A stretch of DNA of 34,931 nt, taken from positions 1-34,931 of the forward strand of contig JAGHVK010000077.1 of assembly GCA_018064345.1 (NCBI GenBank). The letters run 5' to 3'. Each line of letters opens with the position of its first letter. The stretch's first letter is position 1. The stretch is from Candidatus Cacconaster merdequi (GTDB lineage: Bacteria > Bacteroidota > Bacteroidia > Bacteroidales > UBA932). A program made the translations under genes and the position numbers. The notes beneath the pieces are model-generated. The model searched no databases. It worked only from the letters and a program-made list of their open reading frames with translations, and had not been told where the DNA came from. Of this stretch, positions 2,591 to 23,986 are shown piece by piece.

Positions 2591-3892
2591 ATGAAACGTG
2601 TCTTGTTTTTCATTTTGGCGGCTTGCATAGCGTCATTGCCTACTGTGGATGCGCAGAATATCTACAGCATTGAAACCGAACCATCAGAGGATTGTTCCAG
2701 TGGAGTGAGAATCTCCTGGGCTGCGGACACCTCTCTTTTCCAGACTTATGTACTGTATACGAAAGCGACTGACTCACAGTGGAAGAATGCTCTTCAAGCC
2801 AATGCTGAGGAGTCCTGGCGATGTGAGACTTACAACGGTATCTGGTCTGACGATGCATCCGGAAGGGAATTCTATGAAGATGCAGTATTCGTCAAGTGCG
2901 GCACTACCCTCAGCGGGCTCAAGCCCGATACTGAATACAAATATGTGATAACTGACGGTACGGAAAGGAGCCGTGAGCACCGTTTCAGGACTGCCGGCGC
3001 AAAAGAGTGGTCGGCCTGCATCATATCCGATATCCACAGCTACACTCCGCTTCCGGGCAGGCTTGCCAGCGCAATGTCGATGATTGACACCGTCCAGACA
3101 CACGGTTCTCCAGTTCATTTTGTGCTCAGCCCCGGTGACGTGGTGGCATGGGGGAGCAGCTATTCTTTCTGGAAGAGACTCTTTGAAGAGAACAACTTCG
3201 AGGAGATGATGTGGGCCCGTGTGAACGGCAACCACGACAACTGGACCAAGCAGTCGCAGGTGGACCGCAAATTCGAACTTCCGAACGACTTCTTCCTGGG
3301 CTCATCCTACTTTCCGCGCAACGGCTATGAAGGAGAGGAAGGTGTATGCTACCATTTCCGCTACGGAGACCTTATGTGCGTTATGCTGAATACCGAGGAT
3401 ATGCATTCGAAAGAAGGTTTCGAAGCAGCAAGGGATTGGCTTGAAAAAGTTGTTGCAGAGGCACGTGCCTCAAAGAACGCCCCACGCTACATAGCCGTGC
3501 TGATGCATTACGAGTGGTTCATCGGCACAAGCGGAAAGACATCCGAATATGGAAGATGGCACGACACATTCGACCGTCTGGGAATCGACCTTGCCGTTGC
3601 GGGCAACAACCACGTATATGTGCGCACTCCGGCCATCTATGACGGGGAGCCTACAGACGGCAGCAAAGGTACCGTATATGTAGTTACATCATCTTCTGAC
3701 AATGGCCGCGGCCGTTCTTTCTCGGATGCACCTATGCTCAACGACGACCTGATCCAGACACGTTGGACTGAAGGTCCGCACACTGTCAGCGCAATATATA
3801 TGAATGTGAACCGCAAGCGTATCAAGCTGACTCTTCTCAACCGCTATGGTGAGGTTATCGACAGTTGCGAGGTTGTGGCTAAGGCTCGGTAA
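2591..3892 (+). CDS. Secreted metallophosphoesterase with N-terminal fibronectin-like domain
   Basis: A 433-residue exported phosphoesterase of the purple-acid-phosphatase/calcineurin type. A signal peptide (cleavage about 21, TVDAQ) is followed by a beta-sandwich like the PAP N-terminal/FnIII domain (about 25-135) and the catalytic domain (about 140-370). Metal motifs are in order: SDIH (Asp147, His149), PGDVV (Asp183), GNHD (Asn214-His215-Asp216), VLMHYEW (His306) and GNNHVY (338-343). The last block is usually GHxH; here the first His is replaced by Asn339, so metal binding or substrate range may differ. It is preceded by a TATCTTTG -7 box. The fimbrillin cluster starts right after it but has its own promoter, so co-transcription is possible, not required. 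Substrate unknown. Confidence 0.88.
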   Translation: MKRVLFFILAACIASLPTVDAQNIYSIETEPSEDCSSGVRISWAADTSLFQTYVLYTKATDSQWKNALQANAEESWRCETYNGIWSDDASGREFYEDAVFVKCGTTLSGLKPDTEYKYVITDGTERSREHRFRTAGAKEWSACIISDIHSYTPLPGRLASAMSMIDTVQTHGSPVHFVLSPGDVVAWGSSYSFWKRLFEENNFEEMMWARVNGNHDNWTKQSQVDRKFELPNDFFLGSSYFPRNGYEGEEGVCYHFRYGDLMCVMLNTEDMHSKEGFEAARDWLEKVVAEARASKNAPRYIAVLMHYEWFIGTSGKTSEYGRWHDTFDRLGIDLAVAGNNHVYVRTPAIYDGEPTDGSKGTVYVVTSSSDNGRGRSFSDAPMLNDDLIQTRWTEGPHTVSAIYMNVNRKRIKLTLLNRYGEVIDSCEVVAKAR

Positions 3893-3900
3893 TATCTTTG
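3873..3900 (+). promoter_or_regulatory. Promoter of the fimbrillin/C10 cluster
   Basis: TTG at 3873-3875, a 17-bp gap, and TATCTTTG at 3893-3900 match the Bacteroidota promoter pattern (-33 TTTG or TTG, -7 TAnnTTTG). It overlaps the last codons of the phosphoesterase gene and lies 18 bases before the ATG at 3919, which supports that ATG over the upstream TTG at 3898, which sits inside the -7 box. Confidence 0.6.
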
Positions 3901-3918
3901 AAACAAGGCTATTACAAG

Positions 3919-4902
3919 ATGCATAGAGTATTATCAATAATTGTTCTGGCTGCATCGGTGGTGGCGGCCGTTTCCTGCGGAGGGAAGGACACTGCGGCAA
4001 CAGAACAGCCTTTGAGAATTTCCGTGAAGAGCATTGACGGGACAAAAGCAGTGATCACCAACGACGGCTTTCCTGAAAGTTCGGCTGCTGCGATGGGCCT
4101 GTTCCTGAAGGCTTCGGACGGAAACTCAGACTATGACGGGCATACTGCAGGATATTCCAACGTGAAGGCAGAGAAAGCGGCAGCGTCCTCCACCTGGGAA
4201 ATAAACCCTTCCATAATGCTCTCTGAAACAAAAGGCACTCTTTTCGCCTATTATCCGTATTCTTCATCTGCAACAGACTTTGAGCAGGTGCCGGTGGTCT
4301 CTTCAATAAACGGTGCCGATTATCTGTATTCTGTGCCTTTTACCGGGTTGAATGCATCAACCAATGCAGCCACGCTCAATCTCAAACACGCACTTGCACT
4401 GGTGAGCATCAACTTCATAAGAAACTCAAGCTATTCCGGCCCCGGAAAGCTTTCATATCTTTCGCTCTCCAGCGATGCAATAGCTCCAACCGGCAGGATG
4501 GATATCCGTGACGGCTCACTTACTGCATCTTCCTCACCGATAGTCTTTTCTGGATTCGAGGAGACGATAGGTGAGTCCGGTCTTACTGAGTATCTGCTTG
4601 TGGTCCCTGCTCTCTACTCCACTGAAAAGCGTGATGTGGAACTCACCTGCGTGATTGACGGTGTTCAGTACAATCTTTCAATGACGGGTAAGGGAGCTGA
4701 CGGAAACGGAGTGATAATACGTCAGGGTGTACACTCCAAAATCAATCTTACCCTCAAGGACAAGGACCTTCAAGTCGGTAACGTGGCGGTCGAGGCCTGG
4801 AACACTGCATCCGGGTCGGGCAGCAGCATAGGATTCGGCGGTACAGGCATTTATCCGGTTGATGTCAATCCGGCTGAATATGGTGGTTCCTTCGATATTT
4901 AG
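3919..4902 (+). CDS. Fimbrillin-like lipoprotein (Mfa-like)
   Basis: A 327-residue lipoprotein, first gene of the five-gene surface cluster. From the ATG at 3919 the signal ends in the lipobox AVSC (Cys20) followed by GGKD. The mature part is one fimbrillin-like (Mfa-like_1 type) beta domain with blocks shared with the next two proteins: GLFLKASDG, YDGHTAGYSNV, GTLFAYYPYSS, GADYLYSVPFTGL, LKHALALVSI and MDIRDGSLT. Fimbrillins build type V fimbriae of Bacteroidales, where lipoprotein precursors are exported, processed and polymerised. Unlike its neighbours it ends after the fimbrillin fold in a short Gly-rich tail and has no amidotransferase-like domain. The next gene starts 13 bases after its stop. 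Fold assignment by motif; role as stalk or accessory subunit is inferred. Confidence 0.82.
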   Translation: MHRVLSIIVLAASVVAAVSCGGKDTAATEQPLRISVKSIDGTKAVITNDGFPESSAAAMGLFLKASDGNSDYDGHTAGYSNVKAEKAAASSTWEINPSIMLSETKGTLFAYYPYSSSATDFEQVPVVSSINGADYLYSVPFTGLNASTNAATLNLKHALALVSINFIRNSSYSGPGKLSYLSLSSDAIAPTGRMDIRDGSLTASSSPIVFSGFEETIGESGLTEYLLVVPALYSTEKRDVELTCVIDGVQYNLSMTGKGADGNGVIIRQGVHSKINLTLKDKDLQVGNVAVEAWNTASGSGSSIGFGGTGIYPVDVNPAEYGGSFDI

Positions 4903-4915
4903 AACCTGTTCGCTT

Positions 4916-7378
4916 ATGAAATATAGTCTCCATACAATAGTACTCGCACTTGCGGCCTGTGTCCTGTGCTGTTGCTCGCACTCCGATTTCGGAAAGGATT
5001 CAGCCACGTTGCAGATTGACGCAGTCTTCACAGGAGAAATGCAGTCAAAGACGGTAGTGGAAGGTGTGACACTTCCTGATGCTGATGCATCGACAGGTGT
5101 CGGATTGTTCCTCACGGCCTCGAACGGCAATGAATATGACGGTCTTGAAAACGGATATTCCAATGTGCGGTATTCATACGACGGTAAAGGCTGGGCATCT
5201 GCTTCTCCAATCAAACTCTCCGGTACGAAGGGTACTCTTTACGGCTATTTCCCATACAGTTCCAATGTGTCCGGAATTGGCAGCATACCTGTTGAATCTT
5301 CCATTGACGGTACGGATTATATGTTCGCAAGCCCTGTTGAAGGACTCGACTCCGGAAACCGTAACGCATCCCTCCTTCTGAAGCACGCTCTCTCCAGAGT
5401 AACGGTGAAATTCGTAAAGAGCGGGTCATTTACCGGGAAAGGGCTTCTTTCATTCCTGTCGCTTGAAGGTGAGGGCATTGCAGACAAAGGCACCCTTGAC
5501 ATCAGAACCGGAAAGATTACTGCTGACGGCAAATCTTCCAAAGTTGCTTTCAATCTTGCAGAACCTGCCACAATCACAACTTCAGGCATCGTGGAGGAGT
5601 GCCTTGTGGTTCCTTCCGCAGTTTCGGAAGAGCCTCAGCGTGTAGTCCTCTGTTGCACCATTGACGGTACGGACCATTCTCTGGTACTTGACGGAGATAA
5701 CGGTGTTGTGGTTGAACAAGGGGTGAAGTCGGTCGTCGTCGTATCCGTGGACAACAACGAAGTAAAAGTACTGGATGTGTGGGTGGCACGTTGGGAACCC
5801 GGTCCGGAGCTGGCTTTCTCAATCGACGGAACGAAGAATGTGACCGTCAAGCTTGAAGATGACGTCAATGCTGACGATTTGATATATTCTGCATACCCGG
5901 ACGGAGACAAACTTACGGTGAGTGCTCTTTCAAAGATCGGTAAAGCCTTGTTATGCAATGTACCTGACAACTTCGTATGTGTTTCGGATCTGGATTGGAA
6001 TACCGGTATCTACACTTTCACGATATCAGGCATAACTGAAGATGCCACGGTATATATCGGATATCCTCACGATGAAGCGGTGTGGGAGGACATAAGGAAG
6101 GTGAAGGTTCCGAATGACGCCTATTTCCGAGACATCATAATGGATGCCGGATATATGCTTGATGACGGCGTTTCAGATGGCTATACAAAGAGCCTGCCGA
6201 GGGTGTTCAAGGAATTTTATCCCGACAGCTGGGATGCCTTTATCCTTGACAGCAAGGTCCCTGGCGATACCGTGATGCAGAAAAAGTTCTTCAGCGGTTC
6301 TACAGAAGACCTGAACGGACGATTGTTGTATCCTGACGGTTCTCCACGTTTCAAGGCACTGTTCATCATCGGAGGGGATGCCCAAAACTCAGATAATGCA
6401 GAGGCCCACGTCCGTACTCTCGGTGAGGAAGCCTGCGGATATATCCGTTCTTTCCTTGAGAAAGGCGGAAGCGTCGTCACTTCAGGGGGCGCCGGCAGTG
6501 TCCTTGCCGGAACAATCTTCAACGGTGTTGAAGGAGAGTTCCTCGGTCTGTACAACGTGAATTCCTTGCCGAACAATTCCATATCTTCAATTAACGTGAA
6601 TGTCGCCGGTGATTCTCCGCTGACGGCCTATATGTCCGACTTTTCAAATCCGATAAGTGTGAAGAACAAGTATGGGGTTTACCTTGATGAATCAAAATTA
6701 CCGGACGGACTTGAAGTTCTGGCCAGATACTCCAGCTCAAAAAGTGCTTACAGCCTTGCCCCTGCGGTATGGGCTTACAAGAATTCCGAAACATCCGGAC
6801 GTATCGTCGCTTGTGGTGGCAGGCCTGAGGCAGGCAACGATTCCACAAAAGGACCTTACAAACTCTTCAGGGCTGAACTCGAATATGCGATAGAGGGAAG
6901 GGGGCTTGCAGAAGTGAAGGATGTAATCCATAACGGTGAGACCAGATTGATGAATCTTCACGAAGGCGATCCTTCTCATTGCGCAATCGGAGACTTGCAG
7001 TGCCACCATTTCGTTGTCAAGCTTGACAAAAAGGCTTCAACATTCAAGCTCGCTCTCAAATGGGAGGGTGATTCTGACCTTGAACTTTATTTCAAGAAAG
7101 GCTCGTTTGCTTTTCCTGGAGCATCCCCGGACTATTCCTGCTCTGCAAAGGTGAAGGATGGCTCCGCATCATCCGTTGAACTGGCCGTCAATGACGTTCC
7201 TGCCGGATTGTGGTTCGTGACTGTAAGATGCGCCACTTGTCCGGATGTCGTACAGAAAACCACGTCAGGACCTACTGCATACGATTGGAGCAAGTATTAT
7301 GCATATCAAGGTACTGCGGCACAGATGGCTGCCTTGAACGGTATTCCATATTCAATCTCTGCTTTATGGACTTATTAA
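4916..7378 (+). CDS. Fimbrillin / BPL_N-like (inactive) / PPC-like fusion lipoprotein
   Basis: An 820-residue lipoprotein (lipobox LCCC near residues 17-20). An ATG at 4859 in the same frame would bury the signal peptide, so 4916 is chosen. Residues about 35-300 form a fimbrillin-like domain (GLFLTASNG, GTLYGYFPYSS, LKHALSRVTV). Residues about 400-650 match the biotin-protein-ligase N-terminal (BPL_N) fold of the class I amidotransferase superfamily: FRDIIMDAGYMLDDG, LNGRLLYPDGSPRFKA, FIIGG. At the nucleophile elbow the sequence reads VVTSGGAGS, with Gly524 in place of Cys, and the later HPE motif reads RPE with Arg636 in place of His. It therefore looks catalytically dead. The C-terminal part (about 680-820) is PPC-like, contains CATCP and ends MAALNGIPYSISALWTY. 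It is tandem with an apparently intact paralogue. Confidence 0.82.
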   Translation: MKYSLHTIVLALAACVLCCCSHSDFGKDSATLQIDAVFTGEMQSKTVVEGVTLPDADASTGVGLFLTASNGNEYDGLENGYSNVRYSYDGKGWASASPIKLSGTKGTLYGYFPYSSNVSGIGSIPVESSIDGTDYMFASPVEGLDSGNRNASLLLKHALSRVTVKFVKSGSFTGKGLLSFLSLEGEGIADKGTLDIRTGKITADGKSSKVAFNLAEPATITTSGIVEECLVVPSAVSEEPQRVVLCCTIDGTDHSLVLDGDNGVVVEQGVKSVVVVSVDNNEVKVLDVWVARWEPGPELAFSIDGTKNVTVKLEDDVNADDLIYSAYPDGDKLTVSALSKIGKALLCNVPDNFVCVSDLDWNTGIYTFTISGITEDATVYIGYPHDEAVWEDIRKVKVPNDAYFRDIIMDAGYMLDDGVSDGYTKSLPRVFKEFYPDSWDAFILDSKVPGDTVMQKKFFSGSTEDLNGRLLYPDGSPRFKALFIIGGDAQNSDNAEAHVRTLGEEACGYIRSFLEKGGSVVTSGGAGSVLAGTIFNGVEGEFLGLYNVNSLPNNSISSINVNVAGDSPLTAYMSDFSNPISVKNKYGVYLDESKLPDGLEVLARYSSSKSAYSLAPAVWAYKNSETSGRIVACGGRPEAGNDSTKGPYKLFRAELEYAIEGRGLAEVKDVIHNGETRLMNLHEGDPSHCAIGDLQCHHFVVKLDKKASTFKLALKWEGDSDLELYFKKGSFAFPGASPDYSCSAKVKDGSASSVELAVNDVPAGLWFVTVRCATCPDVVQKTTSGPTAYDWSKYYAYQGTAAQMAALNGIPYSISALWTY

Positions 7379-7392
7379 GAAGTTGTTTTGAA

Positions 7393-9921
7393 ATGAACAG
7401 GTCAAATCGGATAATATCAATTTTTACCGCAGCACTGCTGCTTGCGGGCTGCGTGACCGATATTGCTGTTGAATCAGACTCTCTTGCCGTACTCCGGATC
7501 AAATCTGTGGCGATGTCGGATATCAATTCCAAAGCAGTGATTGAAGGTCCTCTCTTTCCTGCGGCAGATGCCGAAAAAGGTATAGGCCTCTTCCTGCTTG
7601 CCGAAGATGGCTCCGACTATGACGGGGTTGCCGCTGATAACAGAAATGTTCTCTACAAAGATTCCGGAAAGGGATGGGAATCCGACAAGCCGCTTGAGCT
7701 TTCCTGCTCCAAGGCTGTATTGTACGGCTATTTCCCATATTCTCAAGGTACGGCTGCAATAGACAGAATTCCGGTATCTTCTTCTTTGAATGGAACCGAT
7801 TATCTGTATGCTGCACCGGTCACCGGGTTGTCCAACTCATCCCCGGTGGCTAATATTGAAATGAAGCATGCGCTTGCGATGATATCGGTAAGATTTGTCA
7901 AGGATGGGTCTTATCCCGGAAAGGGCTTGATCAAGTCTGTCGGGTTGTCCGGTGACGCGATAGCTTCTGAAGGACTGCTTGACATCAGGGACGGCTCGAT
8001 TTCCTCAAGTGCGGATCCAATTGATTTCGCTGTCCCGGATGCCGCTGTCACTGAAAGCGGATGGGTGAGCGATTTTCTGGTTGTGCCGGTCGAAGGCGCA
8101 GATGAAGGAAGCGACATTCAATTGAAATGCAACATCGACGGTATTGACTTCAGTCAGACTATTAGCGGGCTTGACGTGGTTTCCGGTATGAAGTCTGAAG
8201 TCGTGGTTTGCGTGAAGAACATAGGATTGCTGGTTGCCCGCGCAAGCGATGGCGGCGCTATGAACGATATCACAGTTACGCTCGCTGATGGGAAGAAAGT
8301 GAATCTGATACTTTCAAATGAGTTGTATGACAGGGATTTGATTATCAGCGCAAGAGCCAATGGCTCTTCAGCTGTCTTCGATGCTGTGTCCAAATCCGGA
8401 CTCCCTCTGCTGTGTGAGATTGAGGATGGGAAAGGCTACTGCAACTGCATCAACGACCCTCTTTCAAGGTATGTGTCGTTTGAGATTTCCAATTTTGTGG
8501 ATGATGTGACCGATGTTACTTTGGGATATGACGTGCTTAAGATGGTCCGTACCGACGTTCCCGAAAAATCTTTCTACAAGGATGTCTTCATCGACGCGAC
8601 AATGTATCTTGACAATATGCGTACTGAACTGGGCTCCAATACAATAACCGGGGGTCAGATTCCTCTGATTCCGCAGGCCTACTATGACCTCTACGGGAAA
8701 GATACCTGGAGCGATAATGTGGAGTATGCCTGGGCTTTCAACAATGGCGCAAGCGACTCCCTTCTTATGAGAAGCATCATCTGTGGAAATGAGTCTGACT
8801 TGAACGGCGCTCTTCTATATCCTGACGGAGAACCTCGTTTCAAGATGATGTTTTCGTACGGTGGGAAAGCGAGCAATCACGGAAGGGCTGTCGGTGAGGA
8901 CGGCCGCAACAATGTCAGCACTTTCTACGCCAACGGCGGATGTTACGTAGGTTCCTGTGCCGGTGCATATCTTTCTGTACCAATATGGAACAACAGCCCT
9001 GCTGAATACAGCTACGGTCTCATGGACGGAGGTGTGGCGCGTTTCTCCGGGATGTATATCTCAAATGAACCGTACTACAATACCTTGACTGTCACCGGCG
9101 GGACGCGTTTTTCCGAACTGTGCGGCTTCGGGGCGGGGGATGTGGCGGTCGATTCCGTGCAGCACAACGGTGGATGCTACCTTGATGAGAAGCAGTTACC
9201 GCCGCGTGGGGAGATTCTTGCTCTCTTCAGCAGCACTGCCTATCCTGAAGAGAATCTTCAGATAGATGTCACCCATTCGAATCCGAAGACTTGCCTCAAT
9301 CACCCGTGCATCTGGGCATACAAGAGGAACGATATCTCCGGCCGTCTGGTCTCCTGCGGCTCACATCCTGAAAGGTGCAATACAGAGAAGGTCAATTCCC
9401 TGTACAAGGCTGAGGTCCTGTATGCTATGGAGGGATTCGGAAACGCTTCGGCAAAAGCCGTACTCAAGAATGGAGAGACAAGGTTGATGAACCTTCATAA
9501 AGGGGATCCGGCTCATTGCGGTATCGGCGACAAGCAGTACCATCACTTTGTGATTTTCCTTGCCAAGGATGTGAAAGAACTTACGGTGATACTCGATTGG
9601 GACAGCAAGGCAAGGCTTGACCTTGGATTGAGACACGAATCCTTCGCCTTCCTTGATGAGATTGAACAGCCGTTCAGCAGGATAAGTCCTTATGAGAACG
9701 CTTTTGTGGAATCTCCGCTTTCCATAACGCTAAAGGATGTTCCTGCCGGAATGTGGTTTGTGTCAGTACATTGTCAGGAATGTCCGGGAACCGTTATCCA
9801 AACCTGGGCCAATTTGAGTCCGAGGCGGATAGGTGGCTATTTCGAGTATAAGGGAACAGATGAACAGATGGCAGCCTTGAATGGTATTCCGTACCGCATC
9901 ACCGCACAATGGAAATATTGA
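7393..9921 (+). CDS. Fimbrillin / BPL_N-like (catalytic residues kept) / PPC-like fusion lipoprotein
   Basis: An 842-residue paralogue of the preceding protein. The ATG at 7393 gives a clean lipoprotein signal (MNRSNRIIS, lipobox LAGC with Cys20), so longer in-frame starts inside the upstream gene are rejected. The order is fimbrillin domain (about 35-310), BPL_N-like domain (about 390-690) and PPC-like domain (about 705-842). Here the nucleophile elbow is intact, GGCYVGSCAGAYLS with Cys522, and a GSHPE motif supplies His658 and Glu660, as expected of a Cys-His-Glu amidotransferase-type triad. Further shared blocks are FYKDVFIDA, LNGALLYPDGEPRFK, NGETRLMNLH, GDPAHCGIGDKQYHHF, CQECP and the tail MAALNGIPYRITAQWKY. 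The enzymatic activity of BPL_N domains on exported proteins is not known to me. The gene follows 14 bases after its paralogue. Confidence 0.83.
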   Translation: MNRSNRIISIFTAALLLAGCVTDIAVESDSLAVLRIKSVAMSDINSKAVIEGPLFPAADAEKGIGLFLLAEDGSDYDGVAADNRNVLYKDSGKGWESDKPLELSCSKAVLYGYFPYSQGTAAIDRIPVSSSLNGTDYLYAAPVTGLSNSSPVANIEMKHALAMISVRFVKDGSYPGKGLIKSVGLSGDAIASEGLLDIRDGSISSSADPIDFAVPDAAVTESGWVSDFLVVPVEGADEGSDIQLKCNIDGIDFSQTISGLDVVSGMKSEVVVCVKNIGLLVARASDGGAMNDITVTLADGKKVNLILSNELYDRDLIISARANGSSAVFDAVSKSGLPLLCEIEDGKGYCNCINDPLSRYVSFEISNFVDDVTDVTLGYDVLKMVRTDVPEKSFYKDVFIDATMYLDNMRTELGSNTITGGQIPLIPQAYYDLYGKDTWSDNVEYAWAFNNGASDSLLMRSIICGNESDLNGALLYPDGEPRFKMMFSYGGKASNHGRAVGEDGRNNVSTFYANGGCYVGSCAGAYLSVPIWNNSPAEYSYGLMDGGVARFSGMYISNEPYYNTLTVTGGTRFSELCGFGAGDVAVDSVQHNGGCYLDEKQLPPRGEILALFSSTAYPEENLQIDVTHSNPKTCLNHPCIWAYKRNDISGRLVSCGSHPERCNTEKVNSLYKAEVLYAMEGFGNASAKAVLKNGETRLMNLHKGDPAHCGIGDKQYHHFVIFLAKDVKELTVILDWDSKARLDLGLRHESFAFLDEIEQPFSRISPYENAFVESPLSITLKDVPAGMWFVSVHCQECPGTVIQTWANLSPRRIGGYFEYKGTDEQMAALNGIPYRITAQWKY

Positions 9922-9936
9922 TGAAACTGTTTTGAA

Positions 9937-11151
9937 ATGAATAAGATACTGAAATACTTGTTACTGTCCCCGCTTGTCGTGATACTTTCCGTCGCCTGCC
10001 ACAGCGAAGCGGACAGCTTGAAGACGGGCGTTCTCGCCGGAGTGGATGATCCTGTGTGCGGCAATGAGGTGACCAAGGCTCTTTCCTCCGATTTTGTTTT
10101 TTTCTTTGAAAATGAGGACCGCATAACGGTGTTCCCATCTTCCGGCTCTGAGTATATGACATATCTTCTGACTCCTGCCAAAGGTGTGAAGAACAGAGCT
10201 TCGTTCACTGTAGAGAGCTTCAGCCTCAAGGATGGAACATACTATGCGATGTATCCTGCGCTCACGGCTGCCGCTTCCAATCCTGAAAAGATCGAGCTTT
10301 CATTCCACGGACAGGCTCAGAGTGAAAACGGCTCCACCGGACATCTTTCTGCATACGACTATTGCCGTTCCGAGGCTGCGGTCAAGGACAACTCCGGATA
10401 CTTTTCCTTTTCCCACAAAGTGGCCTGGGTGAGGATTTCCATCCCTGCCGGAAAGAAAAACACTTCCTTCGCCGAAGTGTCTGTTTCTGCGGATGAAGGA
10501 GTTCCCGGCTCTGCAAACCTGAATGTCAGGACAGGCGGTGTTTCTTTTGCCGGAAGATCATCTTCAGATGTTCTCTGTCTCTCCCTTGGCGGTGAGGATG
10601 GCATTTCAATCAGTGAAAAGGATACTCTCGTGGCTTATCTTACAATTCCTGCTGAAAAGTACAGCAATCTTTCCATAGAGAGCATCAGCCCTGACGGTGT
10701 AAGATATATATACAGCTTCAAAGGAGAACACGAACTGAAGGAGGGACACTACTATCTTATGAATGTATGGCAGTCCGATGTGGTCAGTCTTGGGGAGTTG
10801 AGTGATTTCGGCCTTTACAAGTGTTATGGCGAAGCTGATGTGCACACATGGGAGCCTATGCTGCTCAAATACAGAAAGGGGATTGAACAGATATCCTGGT
10901 ACAGGAGTACGGACAGGACTCTGTTCCAGTTCTTTGAACTCGGCACCACCTGTTTCGCATCGTTTGAGTTTCTGTCAGTCTCATTGAATGAAGGAGAAAT
11001 ATGCAAGGGAAAGATTATGAGCGGTGACGGAACCGTCTGCAGTGATGCTGATTTCAAGGTGATCAAGAGAAATGAATCCGTGGCTTGGCTTTTTGACAGT
11101 CAGGACGGATTGGGATGTATTGTCAAAACAGGGGAACAAACAGTGGAATGA
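9937..11151 (+). CDS. Fimbrillin-like lipoprotein with unassigned C-terminal domain
   Basis: A 404-residue lipoprotein with lipobox SVAC near residues 18-21. The region about 40-270 has the layout of a fimbrillin-like domain, more diverged than the three upstream proteins: TYYAMYPALTAAAS, YFSFSHKVAWVRIS, GSANLNVRTGG, VAYLTIPAEKYS, ELKEGHYYLMNVW. The last 120 residues (starting near GELSDFGLYKCYG) form a separate Cys-, Phe- and Trp-containing module I do not recognise, possibly a tip or recognition domain. The leader CTGTTTTGAAATGAA around its start is nearly the same as at the start of the previous gene. Its stop overlaps a possible start of the C10 peptidase gene (ATGA), which implies coupled translation and a shared job. 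Confidence 0.75.
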   Translation: MNKILKYLLLSPLVVILSVACHSEADSLKTGVLAGVDDPVCGNEVTKALSSDFVFFFENEDRITVFPSSGSEYMTYLLTPAKGVKNRASFTVESFSLKDGTYYAMYPALTAAASNPEKIELSFHGQAQSENGSTGHLSAYDYCRSEAAVKDNSGYFSFSHKVAWVRISIPAGKKNTSFAEVSVSADEGVPGSANLNVRTGGVSFAGRSSSDVLCLSLGGEDGISISEKDTLVAYLTIPAEKYSNLSIESISPDGVRYIYSFKGEHELKEGHYYLMNVWQSDVVSLGELSDFGLYKCYGEADVHTWEPMLLKYRKGIEQISWYRSTDRTLFQFFELGTTCFASFEFLSVSLNEGEICKGKIMSGDGTVCSDADFKVIKRNESVAWLFDSQDGLGCIVKTGEQTVE

Positions 11152-11153
11152 TT

Positions 11154-12947
11154 ATGAGAAAAGCATTTGCGATATTGTTGTGTATCTCTTTGTACACAGT
11201 CTCTTACGGCAGGATTGTCGGACAGTGGGAGGCCCGGTCGTTCGCTGAAGAGTATCTGGGATCACACGCATCCCTTTCCTGGAGTGCAGGTGACGGTGAC
11301 GGAGCCAAGGTGTCATCCGCCGATGCACCTGCCTTTTACGTATTTCAGTCTGAAAACGAGTGGGTTATCATATCCGGTGACGATATTGCGGTTCCAGTGC
11401 TCGCTCACGGGGAAGGCCGTTTCCCTTTCCACGATGGAATGCCGGCAAATATGCGCGCATACCTTGACGGACTCGGCTCTCAAATCCTGAGAGCAAGGAC
11501 TGAAAACCTTCATGCTGATTCCCGTACCAAGTGGCAATGGGAGCATATATCATCATTGCGTGCTGCCACAAAAGCAGGGAATGGTACAAAGGGCCCTCTT
11601 ACAGCCGATATCAAATGGACTCAGGATTCTCCTTTCAACGGTTTGACTCCTACTTTCTCCGGTTCCCACGCACCTGCCGGATGTGTCGCTACGGCTATGG
11701 CGATAGTGCTGCGCTACCACAGGTGGCCCGAGACTGGAAAAGGTGTCATCCCGGCATATACCACACGAAGTCAAAAGATTAAAATCGATGAAATCAATAT
11801 TGACGGGTACAAGTATGACTGGAGCAAGATGCCTCTCTCTTTCTCCAAGAGTTCAACCGCTGAAGAGAAAGAGGCTGTGGCGAATCTTCTCCTGCACATT
11901 GGTGCGATGGTAAAGATGGATTATGAAAGCGGCTCTTCCGGAGCCTATCCTTCAGACATACTGCCGGCCCTCACCAAGTATATGTCGTACAAAAAATCAG
12001 CGGCATATCTCTATGCTGCCGATTATTCTCACGATGAATGGTTTGCGATGATCAAACGTGAGATAGATGCTGACAGGCCTGTCATATATGGCGCCTCGTC
12101 TGCCACTTCTGGCCACTGTATGGTTTGCGACGGTTATGACGAGTCCACAAGGATGATAAGTGTGAATTGGGGCTGGGGAGCCGGTGGCCGTGGATGGTAT
12201 GTGCTGAATACTATGAACGGCATCCATCAGGGATGGCCTGTGGAACACGATGCCATATTCGGGCTTGAACCCGACCGTGACGGAGATTCATCACCGGCGG
12301 GCAGAATCGCTTTCCGTCAGGGAACAGGTACGAAGTATGGATTCCAACTCGATGACTCTTGCACCGATATTCGCAAGGATGGCGTTTTTACGCTTCGCTT
12401 CGACAAGTTGTACAACAGGGACACTCTGGCGAACATTCAGTACAAATGTGTCCTGTACGACCGTGACAACCGTGAAAAGGAGACTCTTGTCGCTCCTGAG
12501 ACCATTGATTTCAAGGATTCAAATACCAACAAGATTGCAAGCTATGTCACCAGATCGATATCGTGTTCCATCAAGGGTGACTGCGTGATAGGGGACAAGA
12601 TAAAATGTATGCACCGACTTGGTGAAGGCTATCAGTGGCTTCCTGTCGGGAGATGGACGATGAGCTGGTACACCAATGAAGCAAAAGCTATGTATGAGAT
12701 GGGAGCGTATGACCTTGACATAATAGCGCTGCCGTCGTCGATGAAGCCCGGACAAGTCTTTTATCCTCAGTTCCTTTATGGCGGCCACAAAGCCTACAAG
12801 ACGGTCGTGTGGTATTATGATGGAGAGGCTATGGAAGAACGTTTCCCGAGTGTCATACTCGAAGAGGGAAGGCACACGGTGAAGGCAGTCGTCACTTATG
12901 TGGATGATACAGTGCGGACTATCGAGGCTGAATTTGAAGCGAAGTGA
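11154..12947 (+). CDS. C10 family (streptopain-like) secreted cysteine peptidase
   Basis: A 597-residue exported papain-like peptidase. The signal peptide is MRKAFAILLCISLYTVSYG; a second ATG at 11148 forms an ATGA overlap with the upstream stop and would add two residues. An N-terminal propeptide of the Spi/C10 type (about 20-150, with AFYVFQSENEWVIISGDD and PVLAHGEG) precedes the catalytic domain. Catalytic residues are Cys177 in HAPAGCVATAMA, His321 in SATSGHCMVCDGY, and Asn338-Trp339 in SVNWGWGAGGRGWY; the Cys-His spacing of 144 fits the family. About 220 more residues follow, probably beta-sandwich domains for anchoring or substrate binding. C10 enzymes are made as zymogens and self-process. 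Position at the end of the fimbrillin cluster suggests it may process those lipoproteins; that is inference. Confidence 0.92.
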   Translation: MRKAFAILLCISLYTVSYGRIVGQWEARSFAEEYLGSHASLSWSAGDGDGAKVSSADAPAFYVFQSENEWVIISGDDIAVPVLAHGEGRFPFHDGMPANMRAYLDGLGSQILRARTENLHADSRTKWQWEHISSLRAATKAGNGTKGPLTADIKWTQDSPFNGLTPTFSGSHAPAGCVATAMAIVLRYHRWPETGKGVIPAYTTRSQKIKIDEINIDGYKYDWSKMPLSFSKSSTAEEKEAVANLLLHIGAMVKMDYESGSSGAYPSDILPALTKYMSYKKSAAYLYAADYSHDEWFAMIKREIDADRPVIYGASSATSGHCMVCDGYDESTRMISVNWGWGAGGRGWYVLNTMNGIHQGWPVEHDAIFGLEPDRDGDSSPAGRIAFRQGTGTKYGFQLDDSCTDIRKDGVFTLRFDKLYNRDTLANIQYKCVLYDRDNREKETLVAPETIDFKDSNTNKIASYVTRSISCSIKGDCVIGDKIKCMHRLGEGYQWLPVGRWTMSWYTNEAKAMYEMGAYDLDIIALPSSMKPGQVFYPQFLYGGHKAYKTVVWYYDGEAMEERFPSVILEEGRHTVKAVVTYVDDTVRTIEAEFEAK

Positions 12948-21511: not shown

Positions 21512-23257
21512 CTAACGTTCTTGGCTGATAAGCGTCATTCCGGAAAGTTCAAGAAGTCTCTTTGAAACTCCGAGGTCATCTGGCCTGATTGTAAATTTCG
21601 GTGGTATGTAACCTCTTACATTTGATTTCTTGTAAGGAGCTGCCGCACCAGGATAGATGAGTCTGAGATCAATCGTGGATGTGACTGTTTTATTGTCAGG
21701 AATGTCAAGGACACCATCGCAGGATGTGATTCCCCATGGATTCCTCATGGAGAACAGGAACTCTCCAGACGTGTTGGCTGTATACATAAGGGTAAATGCG
21801 TGGGCTGTTACACTCGTAAGCTGGCCACATTGCAGACCACCCACAGTAAATCCTCCGATGCCGATCATTCCATTGTCAACGCCCCATTCAACAGCCATTT
21901 TCAGTTCGCTTGCCCATAAGCAGTTAGGGTAGAAAGAAAAGCTCCTGCCGTCTCCAGTCAAAAGAGGCGCTGCAAACTCGGAGCCTATCCCCCAAAGGTT
22001 ATCCACTTTGTATATTGTCTCCCATTTCATAAGTGCTTTTTCAAGTACTGTTGACCATGTTGGGAGATTGTTCTTTCCTGTAACTTGAGCTAAGGAGCCG
22101 CTGTTGTCGCATAGGAAATTGGAATTGACGGAAACAGAAACAGCTTTTCCTTGTGTATCATAAAGTGATACGGAAAAAGTCCCGTCATTGTTATCCTTGA
22201 TGATATGCTTTATGTAATCCGGGTATATGTATGCAAATGATGCCAAGACGGAGCAGAGACTGCAATCTCCAATGGAATGCTGGTTCACATCCGCAGGAAC
22301 AGGATCTCCGAAAGGATACAGAGTAACGCTGAAATGTCTCCATGTCGTCAGGGTCGGAGCCTGGGGGTTTTCGTTAGCATATCTGTAATCAGGCTCGTTG
22401 TTCGGATTTGCAAGCCATAGTCTGTCCTCCTCTGTAGTGACATGCCCGTTGAGAAAATGAATACCCATCGGGTTATTGTCTGAATCAGTAGTACCACCCC
22501 GGAGAGTAAGGATGAAATCGATATCGGTTGATTCCTTATGGGACGGGTCTGTAATATTTGTTTCAGGTTCCGGTGCATTTATTGCAGCCATTGCAGACGT
22601 ATACCAATAACGTAAAGCACCGGCTTCACCTTCTCTCAATATTATCCTATCTTTTGTGTTTTCAACGATATACATCGTTTTTTCAGGACTACCACTCTTC
22701 CTGAAAGTGAAACTGGTACCATCCTCCGAGTATTTTATCGCATACTCACCATTGCCATTTGGATCCTGCTGACCGGCCCAGACCAGCACATCAGGTTTGA
22801 ATGTAATGGTTTCCTCACCATTGAAGTGTATGACAAGGGAGCTGCTGACATAATAGCCAAGATACCATTTTCCTCCAATAATCATATCCTGGGTTTCAAT
22901 TCCGCTCTGCTTTATGGAGAAGTTCTGGGTCATTCCTTTGGACGTTATTGAGACAGTACCGGTCCGGTCAGACTTGCCCTCATTCTCAGATAGGGTAACA
23001 ATCAATATATTAGCTCCGGCAGGTCCGTTAGATTGAGACAAGGATATCCACGTAGCTGTAGAACTCGCTATCCAGGAATCAGGAGCTATGAAATGTATCA
23101 CATAGCTTTGTTGTTCACAAGTAAATTCCATGTCTGAAATATCGACAGAGAATTCTATCTTTTCCGAATCCTTCTCCATTTTGTCACAGGAAAGGAGAAG
23201 AAACGAAAAAGCGAACGTTGAAAGCAAAGTCAGCAGTTTGGATATGTTTTTTGACAT
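21512..23257 (-). CDS. BACON-calpain (C2 family) cysteine peptidase lipoprotein
   Basis: A 581-residue lipoprotein (lipobox LLSC, Cys24). Residues about 33-118 form a BACON domain (SWIASSTATWISLSQSNGPAG, RTGTVSITSKG, FSIKQSG), followed by a lipocalin-like or DUF-type beta region (about 120-225) and a calpain-like catalytic domain (about 310-545). The catalytic set is visible: Gln326 six residues before Cys332 in NQHSIGDCSLCS, His486 in TAHAFTLMY, and Asn506 in MRNPWG. The spacings 154 and 20 are close to those of calpains, and SVSLYDTQGKAVSVSV matches the strand after the Cys helix. The best-known bacterial relative of this kind is Tpr of Porphyromonas. A role in protein degradation at the cell surface is inferred. 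Upstream 258 bases are shared with the divergent DUF937-like gene. Confidence 0.85.
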   Translation of the reverse strand: MSKNISKLLTLLSTFAFSFLLLSCDKMEKDSEKIEFSVDISDMEFTCEQQSYVIHFIAPDSWIASSTATWISLSQSNGPAGANILIVTLSENEGKSDRTGTVSITSKGMTQNFSIKQSGIETQDMIIGGKWYLGYYVSSSLVIHFNGEETITFKPDVLVWAGQQDPNGNGEYAIKYSEDGTSFTFRKSGSPEKTMYIVENTKDRIILREGEAGALRYWYTSAMAAINAPEPETNITDPSHKESTDIDFILTLRGGTTDSDNNPMGIHFLNGHVTTEEDRLWLANPNNEPDYRYANENPQAPTLTTWRHFSVTLYPFGDPVPADVNQHSIGDCSLCSVLASFAYIYPDYIKHIIKDNNDGTFSVSLYDTQGKAVSVSVNSNFLCDNSGSLAQVTGKNNLPTWSTVLEKALMKWETIYKVDNLWGIGSEFAAPLLTGDGRSFSFYPNCLWASELKMAVEWGVDNGMIGIGGFTVGGLQCGQLTSVTAHAFTLMYTANTSGEFLFSMRNPWGITSCDGVLDIPDNKTVTSTIDLRLIYPGAAAPYKKSNVRGYIPPKFTIRPDDLGVSKRLLELSGMTLISQER

Positions 23258-23515: not shown

Positions 23516-23986
23516 ATGGCTAACATTGCTGACATCATTTCACAAGCGGTAAGCGCTTCTGCGGGGAAAATTGACATCCCTTCAAACGTCAAGAACCAGG
23601 TTCTCGGCGGACTTTCTGACTCTATTTTCGGAAGCCTTACTCAGACTGCCGCCAAACCGGGTGGAATCGATATGGTAAAATCCCTTCTTACCGGGAAAAC
23701 AGCTGCTGCAAGCAGCCCTATCACTGCTCTTGCAGGCAATCTCTTTACCAACAATGTCGTGAAGAAACTTGGCCTTGGTGGTGGCATTGCTTCTGCTCTT
23801 TCAGGCATTGTTCCTTCAATTATGGGAAAGCTCAGTGGTGTTCTCAAAGATCAGGATGGCGACGGTGACGTCGATTTCCAGGATATTCTCATCGCTCTCA
23901 AGGGCGGTGGCGCAAAGCAAAGCGGTACTTCATCTATCCTTGGTGCTGCCACCGGCATTCTCGGCGGCTTGCTGAAGAAGAAATAG
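23516..23986 (+). CDS. DUF937-like protein with an EF-hand/dockerin-type loop
   Basis: A 156-residue protein, rich in Gly, Ala, Leu and Ser, without a signal peptide. The N-terminal part (IADIISQAV, IPSNVKNQVLGGLSDSIFGS) and repeated Gly-rich helices resemble the DUF937/YidB type. Residues 112-123 read DQDGDGDVDFQD, a complete calcium-binding EF-hand loop with Asp at positions 1, 3, 5, 7, 9 and 12, followed by ILIALKG as in dockerin or excalibur repeats. The C-terminus is a Gly-rich helix ending in three Lys. Calcium binding is predicted from the loop; function is unknown. It is a single-gene unit with its own -7 box and a strong terminator. The Gly/Ala content suggests a self-associating protein, which is inference. 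Confidence 0.75.
   Translation: MANIADIISQAVSASAGKIDIPSNVKNQVLGGLSDSIFGSLTQTAAKPGGIDMVKSLLTGKTAAASSPITALAGNLFTNNVVKKLGLGGGIASALSGIVPSIMGKLSGVLKDQDGDGDVDFQDILIALKGGGAKQSGTSSILGAATGILGGLLKKK

Follow-up and report, generated by a model that had tools for sequence, protein, structure and literature searches.

Adjacent fimbrillin-like lipoproteins of Candidatus Cacconaster merdequi carry an intact and a catalytically degenerate copy of a conserved amidotransferase-like module

The DNA analysed here, called the window throughout, comprises the first 34,931 bases of contig 7 of a Candidatus Cacconaster merdequi assembly (1.9 Mb, 120 contigs, 84% complete and 6% contaminated). On its plus strand lies a tight run of genes in the order metallophosphatase, A, P1, P2, D and C10 cysteine peptidase, with only 13, 14 and 15 bases separating A from P1, P1 from P2 and P2 from D. 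P1 and P2, the subject of this study, are 40% identical and have a common three-part layout: a fimbrillin-like N-terminal domain is followed by a domain resembling BPL_N and class I glutamine amidotransferases (GATases) and by a part resembling pre-peptidase C-terminal (PPC) domains. The last two parts are together referred to as the module. The features of both proteins are:

4916..7378 (ATG at 4916, stop ends at 7378), plus strand: P1, lipoprotein of 820 amino acids, fimbrillin-like, catalytically dead BPL_N/GATase-like and PPC-like
5084..5794, plus strand: P1 fimbrillin-like domain, residues 57-293 (Pfam E 7.8e-22)
6107..7375, plus strand: P1 GATase-like and PPC-like module, residues 398-820 (40% identity to the P2 module, E 7.3e-71)
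6485..6490, plus strand: P1 Gly524-Gly525 at the site of the nucleophile Cys (sequence and alignment)
6821..6823, plus strand: P1 Arg636 at the site of the catalytic His, Glu638 being retained (sequence and alignment)
7393..9921 (ATG at 7393, stop ends at 9921), plus strand: P2, lipoprotein of 842 amino acids, fimbrillin-like, intact BPL_N/GATase-like and PPC-like
7567..8220, plus strand: P2 fimbrillin-like domain, residues 59-276 (Pfam E 2.4e-15; Foldseek match to 3sy6, E 1.8e-10)
8575..9447, plus strand: P2 predicted class I GATase-fold domain, residues 395-685 (fold searches)
8956..8958, plus strand: P2 Cys522 in the nucleophile elbow (family conservation; weak alignment to GTCAG of PdxT, E 0.11)
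9364..9372, plus strand: P2 His658-Pro659-Glu660, with the His658 codon at 9364-9366 (family conservation; HPE of PdxT aligned in a second segment, -0.3 bits)
9460..9918, plus strand: PPC-like part at the C-terminus of P2, G712, D713, Q715 and H717 being invariant (family conservation)

Domains and active-site residues of P1 and P2

The Mfa_like_1 profile of Pfam (cut-off 27 bits) matches P1 with 78.9 bits and P2 with 57.7 bits, consistent with the Foldseek result for P2 and with the fimbrillin-fold N-terminus that a first-pass annotation of this DNA had proposed. Pfam searches for the remaining parts gave less: BPL_N (PF09825) reaches 19.7 bits in P2 against a cut-off of 24.2 and has no match in P1, and PPC (PF04151) has no profile match up to E 1 in either protein. 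Among the 50 proteins in which the module is fused to an N-terminal extension (see below), 46 match BPL_N at E 0.01 or better (best 8e-15) and 41 match PPC at E 0.01. Fold searches assign the class I GATase fold to the predicted structure of P2, with a match that spans nearly all of PdxT. For the model of a relative from the same genus (locus L108) both GATase and PPC folds are found, the PPC part matching 5sv5 and collagenase domains; the PPC fold is thus matched for the L108 model and not directly for P2. The three-part layout described in the first-pass annotation, with its BPL_N-like and PPC-like parts, holds for both proteins. In sequence searches of the PDB, an alignment of the fused proteins found nothing at E 0.1 and an alignment of the N-termini found three weak matches, all unrelated.

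The nucleophile elbow of P2 reads GSCAGAY, with Cys522, and its second motif GSHPE, with His658 and Glu660; the corresponding motifs of P1 are TSGGAGS and GGRPE, with Arg636 in place of the His and with Glu638 retained. The P1 elbow has one extra residue and the alignment places Gly525 on Cys522: the first-pass annotation was right about a glycine at this site, although the residue it named was Gly524. Its readings of Cys522, His658 and Glu660 in P2 and of Arg636 in P1 agree with both sequence and alignment. Judged from secondary structure and the PdxT alignment, Cys, His and Glu are probably close in space.

Conservation, pairing and recurrent fusion of the module

Homologues of the P2 module came from three sources: 61 genomes that were searched, 70 loci from a scan of genome contigs, and 60 further stretches of genus genomes (individual loci are given here by L numbers). 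In the 61-genome search, 29 genomes matched, all of them among the 37 from the genus of the window, and none of the 24 from other genera did. The 243 BLAST hits, after removal of 17 partial and 49 duplicate sequences, left 177 distinct full-length modules. The genus genomes, counting the window, supplied 87 of these, and the genome contigs, whose Bacteroidales loci may lie outside the genus, the other 90. Both Cys and His are present in 176 of the 177 modules and P1 is the single exception for each; Pro and Glu are present in all. This pattern is more than chance. The reading of one copy with a full triad of the class I GATase type and one without is supported. D478, R482 and K688 are likewise invariant, and G490 (176 modules), G491 (175) and H496 (171) nearly so. 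In the PPC-like part G712, D713, Q715 and H717 are found in every module; because of these invariant residues, the PPC-like part seems to be a piece of the working unit.

The first-pass annotation had further suggested that active and inactive copies go together, which fails as a general rule; the heterodimer or surface modification system that it also named would be speculative. There are 58 adjacent module pairs on the same strand. In 27 of them the non-redundant set contains both members (the other 31 involve duplicates or cut frames and were inspected by motif only). Both members are intact in 26 of these 27 pairs, the exception being the pair in the window. A description as enzyme and pseudoenzyme fits the sequences of P1 and P2, but in an otherwise conserved family P1 stands alone as a dead copy.

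An N-terminal extension of at least 150 residues, counted from the previous stop, precedes 50 of the 177 modules and is absent from 127. One BLAST-linked group holds 40 of these extensions, and a profile of 32 of the 40 matches one built from the four fimbrillin-like proteins of the window with 96% probability (E 3.4e-9); the 256 aligned columns, which include the signal peptides, are 14% identical. Pfam names Mfa_like_1 in only two of the 50 fused proteins, P1 and P2. A profile from the N-terminal halves of neighbouring proteins with DUF285 leucine-rich repeats (LRRs) matches 35 of the 50, P1 and P2 not among them, and a fimbrillin-LRR gene directly follows 18 of the 48 fused modules from outside the window. 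Three fused proteins, probably those of L007, L018 and L159, match glycosyltransferase family 2, so that fusions of the module with a glycosyltransferase may exist as well. A simple pattern marks 42 of the 50 fused modules as lipoprotein-like and finds a signal-peptide-like start without a lipobox in 100 of the 127 non-fused ones. Modules labelled Neomarinimicrobiota, Calditrichota and others seem to end in what we take to be a sorting tail of the type IX secretion system; Pfam names a tail of this type on neighbour proteins in L069 and L072. The module has been mounted repeatedly on fimbrillin-like or LRR surface proteins, and P1 and P2 are one local case. In the library searched, no paper turned up on a fimbrillin fused to a glutamine amidotransferase or on the module family, in line with the annotator's impression that the fusion was undescribed. 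Nor was there one that joins a gamma-glutamyl hydrolase with a pre-peptidase C-terminal domain or DUF285 with a fimbrillin, or one on surface proteins of Cryptobacteroides; a single paper mentions PF09825.

Copy number is highest in G022, a 1.9-Mb genome in which 27 module matches were scored out of 38 candidates. A profile search in 295 genomes of the order, with at most six candidates scored per genome, found only the genome of the window at E 1e-20. Five module genes follow one another on one strand in L057 (8875-15523), and the same array in L107 has Cys and HPE motifs in all five members. Seven modules (in L105, L110, L117, L137 and L145) have C-terminal DUF285-type LRRs and no N-terminal fimbrillin-like domain.

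Possible functions of P2 and its neighbours

We propose that P2 would be a cell-surface lipoprotein in which a fimbrillin-fold base carries a hydrolase of the class I GATase fold, with Cys522-His658-Glu660 as its triad and the PPC-like domain as an integral part. The Cys would attack an amide or isopeptide bond of gamma-glutamyl or similar type and free glutamate or an amine; P1, the tandem sister that has lost nucleophile and His, would capture the same ligand without cleavage or serve as a structural partner. The proposal as a whole is tentative, and somewhat more apt to fail than to hold in all its parts. Gamma-glutamyl chemistry is suggested by the fold together with glutamate-type neighbours of other modules. 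In the Prevotella-labelled loci L034, L035 and L043, two modules lie between genes for a C26 gamma-glutamyl hydrolase, an Asp/Glu racemase with a Na/glutamate symporter, and a C69 dipeptidase (some named by Pfam, others through BLAST at ~80-88% identity). A racemase adjoins the module in L051 and L052, and L040 contains SusC, SusD, an AAT-type amidase, an FGase-like protein, the module, an M14 carboxypeptidase and a glutamate symporter.

Several observations weigh against this proposal. Among the families listed for the neighbours that were scanned (66 of 93 upstream, 68 of 90 downstream), Glt_symporter occurs upstream in 3 of 66, Asp_Glu_race in 2 and SusD in 3, and C69 and M14 each occur downstream in 3 of 68; because glutamate-type neighbours are such a small minority, our confidence in the proposal is lowered. 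They come from three lineages, as L034, L035 and L043 are close relatives and L051 and L052 nearly identical. Other contexts differ, for example a sulfatase in L087 and a beta-lactamase with an amidase in L090, and Pfam searches of the window proteins named no glutamate-uptake or racemase gene beside P1 and P2. Profile comparisons with hhalign gave a probability of 0.4 for the module against five neighbouring C26-like proteins, 1.4 against HisH/PdxT and 8.7 against PdxT, none of them significant.

P2 is like PdxT/YaaE, HisH and BPL_N (PF09825) in fold, elbow Cys and HPE motif; P1 and P2 differ from these in being exported, in the PPC-like part and in further invariant residues, and no synthase partner was seen. 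From class I glutamine amidotransferases P1 also differs in the absence of Cys and His, and the profile similarity is not significant. The same is true of profile matches to neighbouring C26 proteins, which belong to the gamma-glutamyl hydrolases and peptidases of this fold (C26, plant GGP1).

A side observation concerns the racemase and symporter: in L034 (1231-4080) and L043 (4667-7516) a single frame of 950 amino acids combines a signal-peptide-like start with both parts, which are two frames in L035.

The other genes of the run are:

2591-3892, plus strand: metallophosphatase, first gene of the run, 5' of A
3898..4902, plus strand: gene A, fimbrillin-like lipoprotein without payload (Pfam Mfa_like_1, E 4.5e-20)
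9937..11151, plus strand: gene D, fimbrillin-like lipoprotein (Mfa_like_1) whose C-terminus of ~130 amino acids is different (Pfam E 2.1e-10)
11151..12947, plus strand: exported-looking C10 cysteine peptidase with Spi prodomain, directly after D (Pfam C10 E 9.8e-58, Inhibitor_I69 E 7.7e-10)

Gene A is 39% identical to the N-terminal part of P1, and D shows weak similarity, at E 1e-4 to 1e-3, to the gene that follows the module on its 3' side in L108, L131, L132 and L144. Alternatively, P1 and P2 could be tip subunits of a type V pilus (FimA/Mfa-type) with adhesive GATase and PPC domains, A being the plain pilin and the C10 protease maturing the pilins; catalysis would then be secondary. This is rather unlikely, though it draws on four consecutive fimbrillin-like lipoproteins with a C10 protease in one run and on a Lys common to all four, 23-27 residues after the lipid Cys; Arg or Lys occupies the matching column in 28 of 32 genus N-termini. 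Presumably this position corresponds to the Rgp-processed site of FimA and Mfa1. Against the pilus reading, no Lys/Arg specificity is known for C10 proteases. C10 relatives occur within six other module loci (weakest E 1e-5), but do not always adjoin the module; 127 of the 177 modules have no N-terminal extension of the length considered; and a triad kept in all modules except P1 is not expected of a mere adhesin. Bacteroides Mfa_like_1 proteins (BF1861, BACOVA_04980) and FimA/Mfa pili have the N-terminal fold, the lipobox and the Lys/Arg near the mature N-terminus in common with P1 and P2, which differ from them by their large enzyme-like C-terminal payload. Passages of PMC5954841 and PMC7616799 describe the maturation of type V pilins by Rgp proteases.

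Distinctly improbable is a module that only binds glycans or peptides in the manner of SGBP-lev (Bt1761), with a structural triad: binding alone would not need a Cys-His-Glu set kept across phyla. SGBP-lev, according to passages of PMC7618045, resembles P1 and P2 as a lipoprotein of Bacteroidetes that combines beta domains with a ThuA-like domain at its end. It differs in binding levan, and those passages mention neither a fimbrillin nor a PPC domain; P2, for its part, has an intact triad.

Elsewhere in the window, the protein encoded at 21512-23257 (minus strand) combines BACON and calpain-type C2 protease domains, and two open frames (1172-1732 and 23516-23986) have no Pfam match.

The degenerate copy and the biology of the family

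P1 does not look decayed from its sequence. Its 820-codon frame is uninterrupted (a crude simulation with 0.1 random substitutions per base put at least one stop into each of 200 runs) and the G+C content at its codon positions is like that of its neighbours. In the other 175 rows, 48 columns reach a conservation of 95% or more; P1 retains 41 of them and P2 44; the median of the other rows is all 48. In a quick tree P1 and P2 are sisters with support 100. As most other invariant residues are kept and the chemistry is lost, binding without cutting is the simplest functional reading, and P1 most likely binds the ligand of P2 in this way or is a structural partner. SGBP-lev (PMC7618045) offers a Bacteroidetes precedent for a ThuA-like domain that acts as a binder at the surface. 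This reading of P1 is weakened by the nature of its changes, since the losses include the elbow residue G520 as well as Cys and His, and H591 (166 of 177 modules) is Asn: with G520 and H591 changed, the pocket is altered. An assembly error is unlikely, as two codon sites, G520, H591 and the inserted residue all differ.

P1 could also be a by-product: an inactivated duplicate without a role linked to P2, preserved by chance or in the course of being lost. The seven conserved columns it misses put it level with the worst of the other 175 rows (L097, 41 retained), it is the only dead copy in the family, and its active site may have been lost recently. Its end branch is slightly longer than that of P2 (0.77 versus 0.63), both being long and flagged by the program. 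At E 1e-80 it has no match in 39 other genus genomes, and a search for close relatives in 40 genus genomes and in viral contigs returned only P1 and P2 themselves. The open frame, the 41 retained columns and the neighbour-like G+C content speak against this explanation, which we consider improbable, and we prefer P1 as a non-cutting binder or structural partner of P2.

More important than the dead copy is the family itself, which has been mounted on surface proteins again and again. The family is exported, enzyme-like and strictly conserved, its substrate class can be tested, no description of it was found in the literature searched, and it is amplified in some gut Bacteroidales (genomes labelled goat, sheep, buffalo and horse). 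P1 adds a clear test case for a pseudoenzyme: one dead copy in 177, next to an intact sister with a surface anchor of the same type. More speculatively, and with little expectation that all of it will hold, the genus might have turned an exported gamma-glutamyl-type hydrolase into a surface arsenal on pilin-like or LRR stalks, with up to 27 copies per genome, and the lineage of the window might pair an active copy with a substrate-capturing dead sister in an enzyme-tipped pilus or surface complex.
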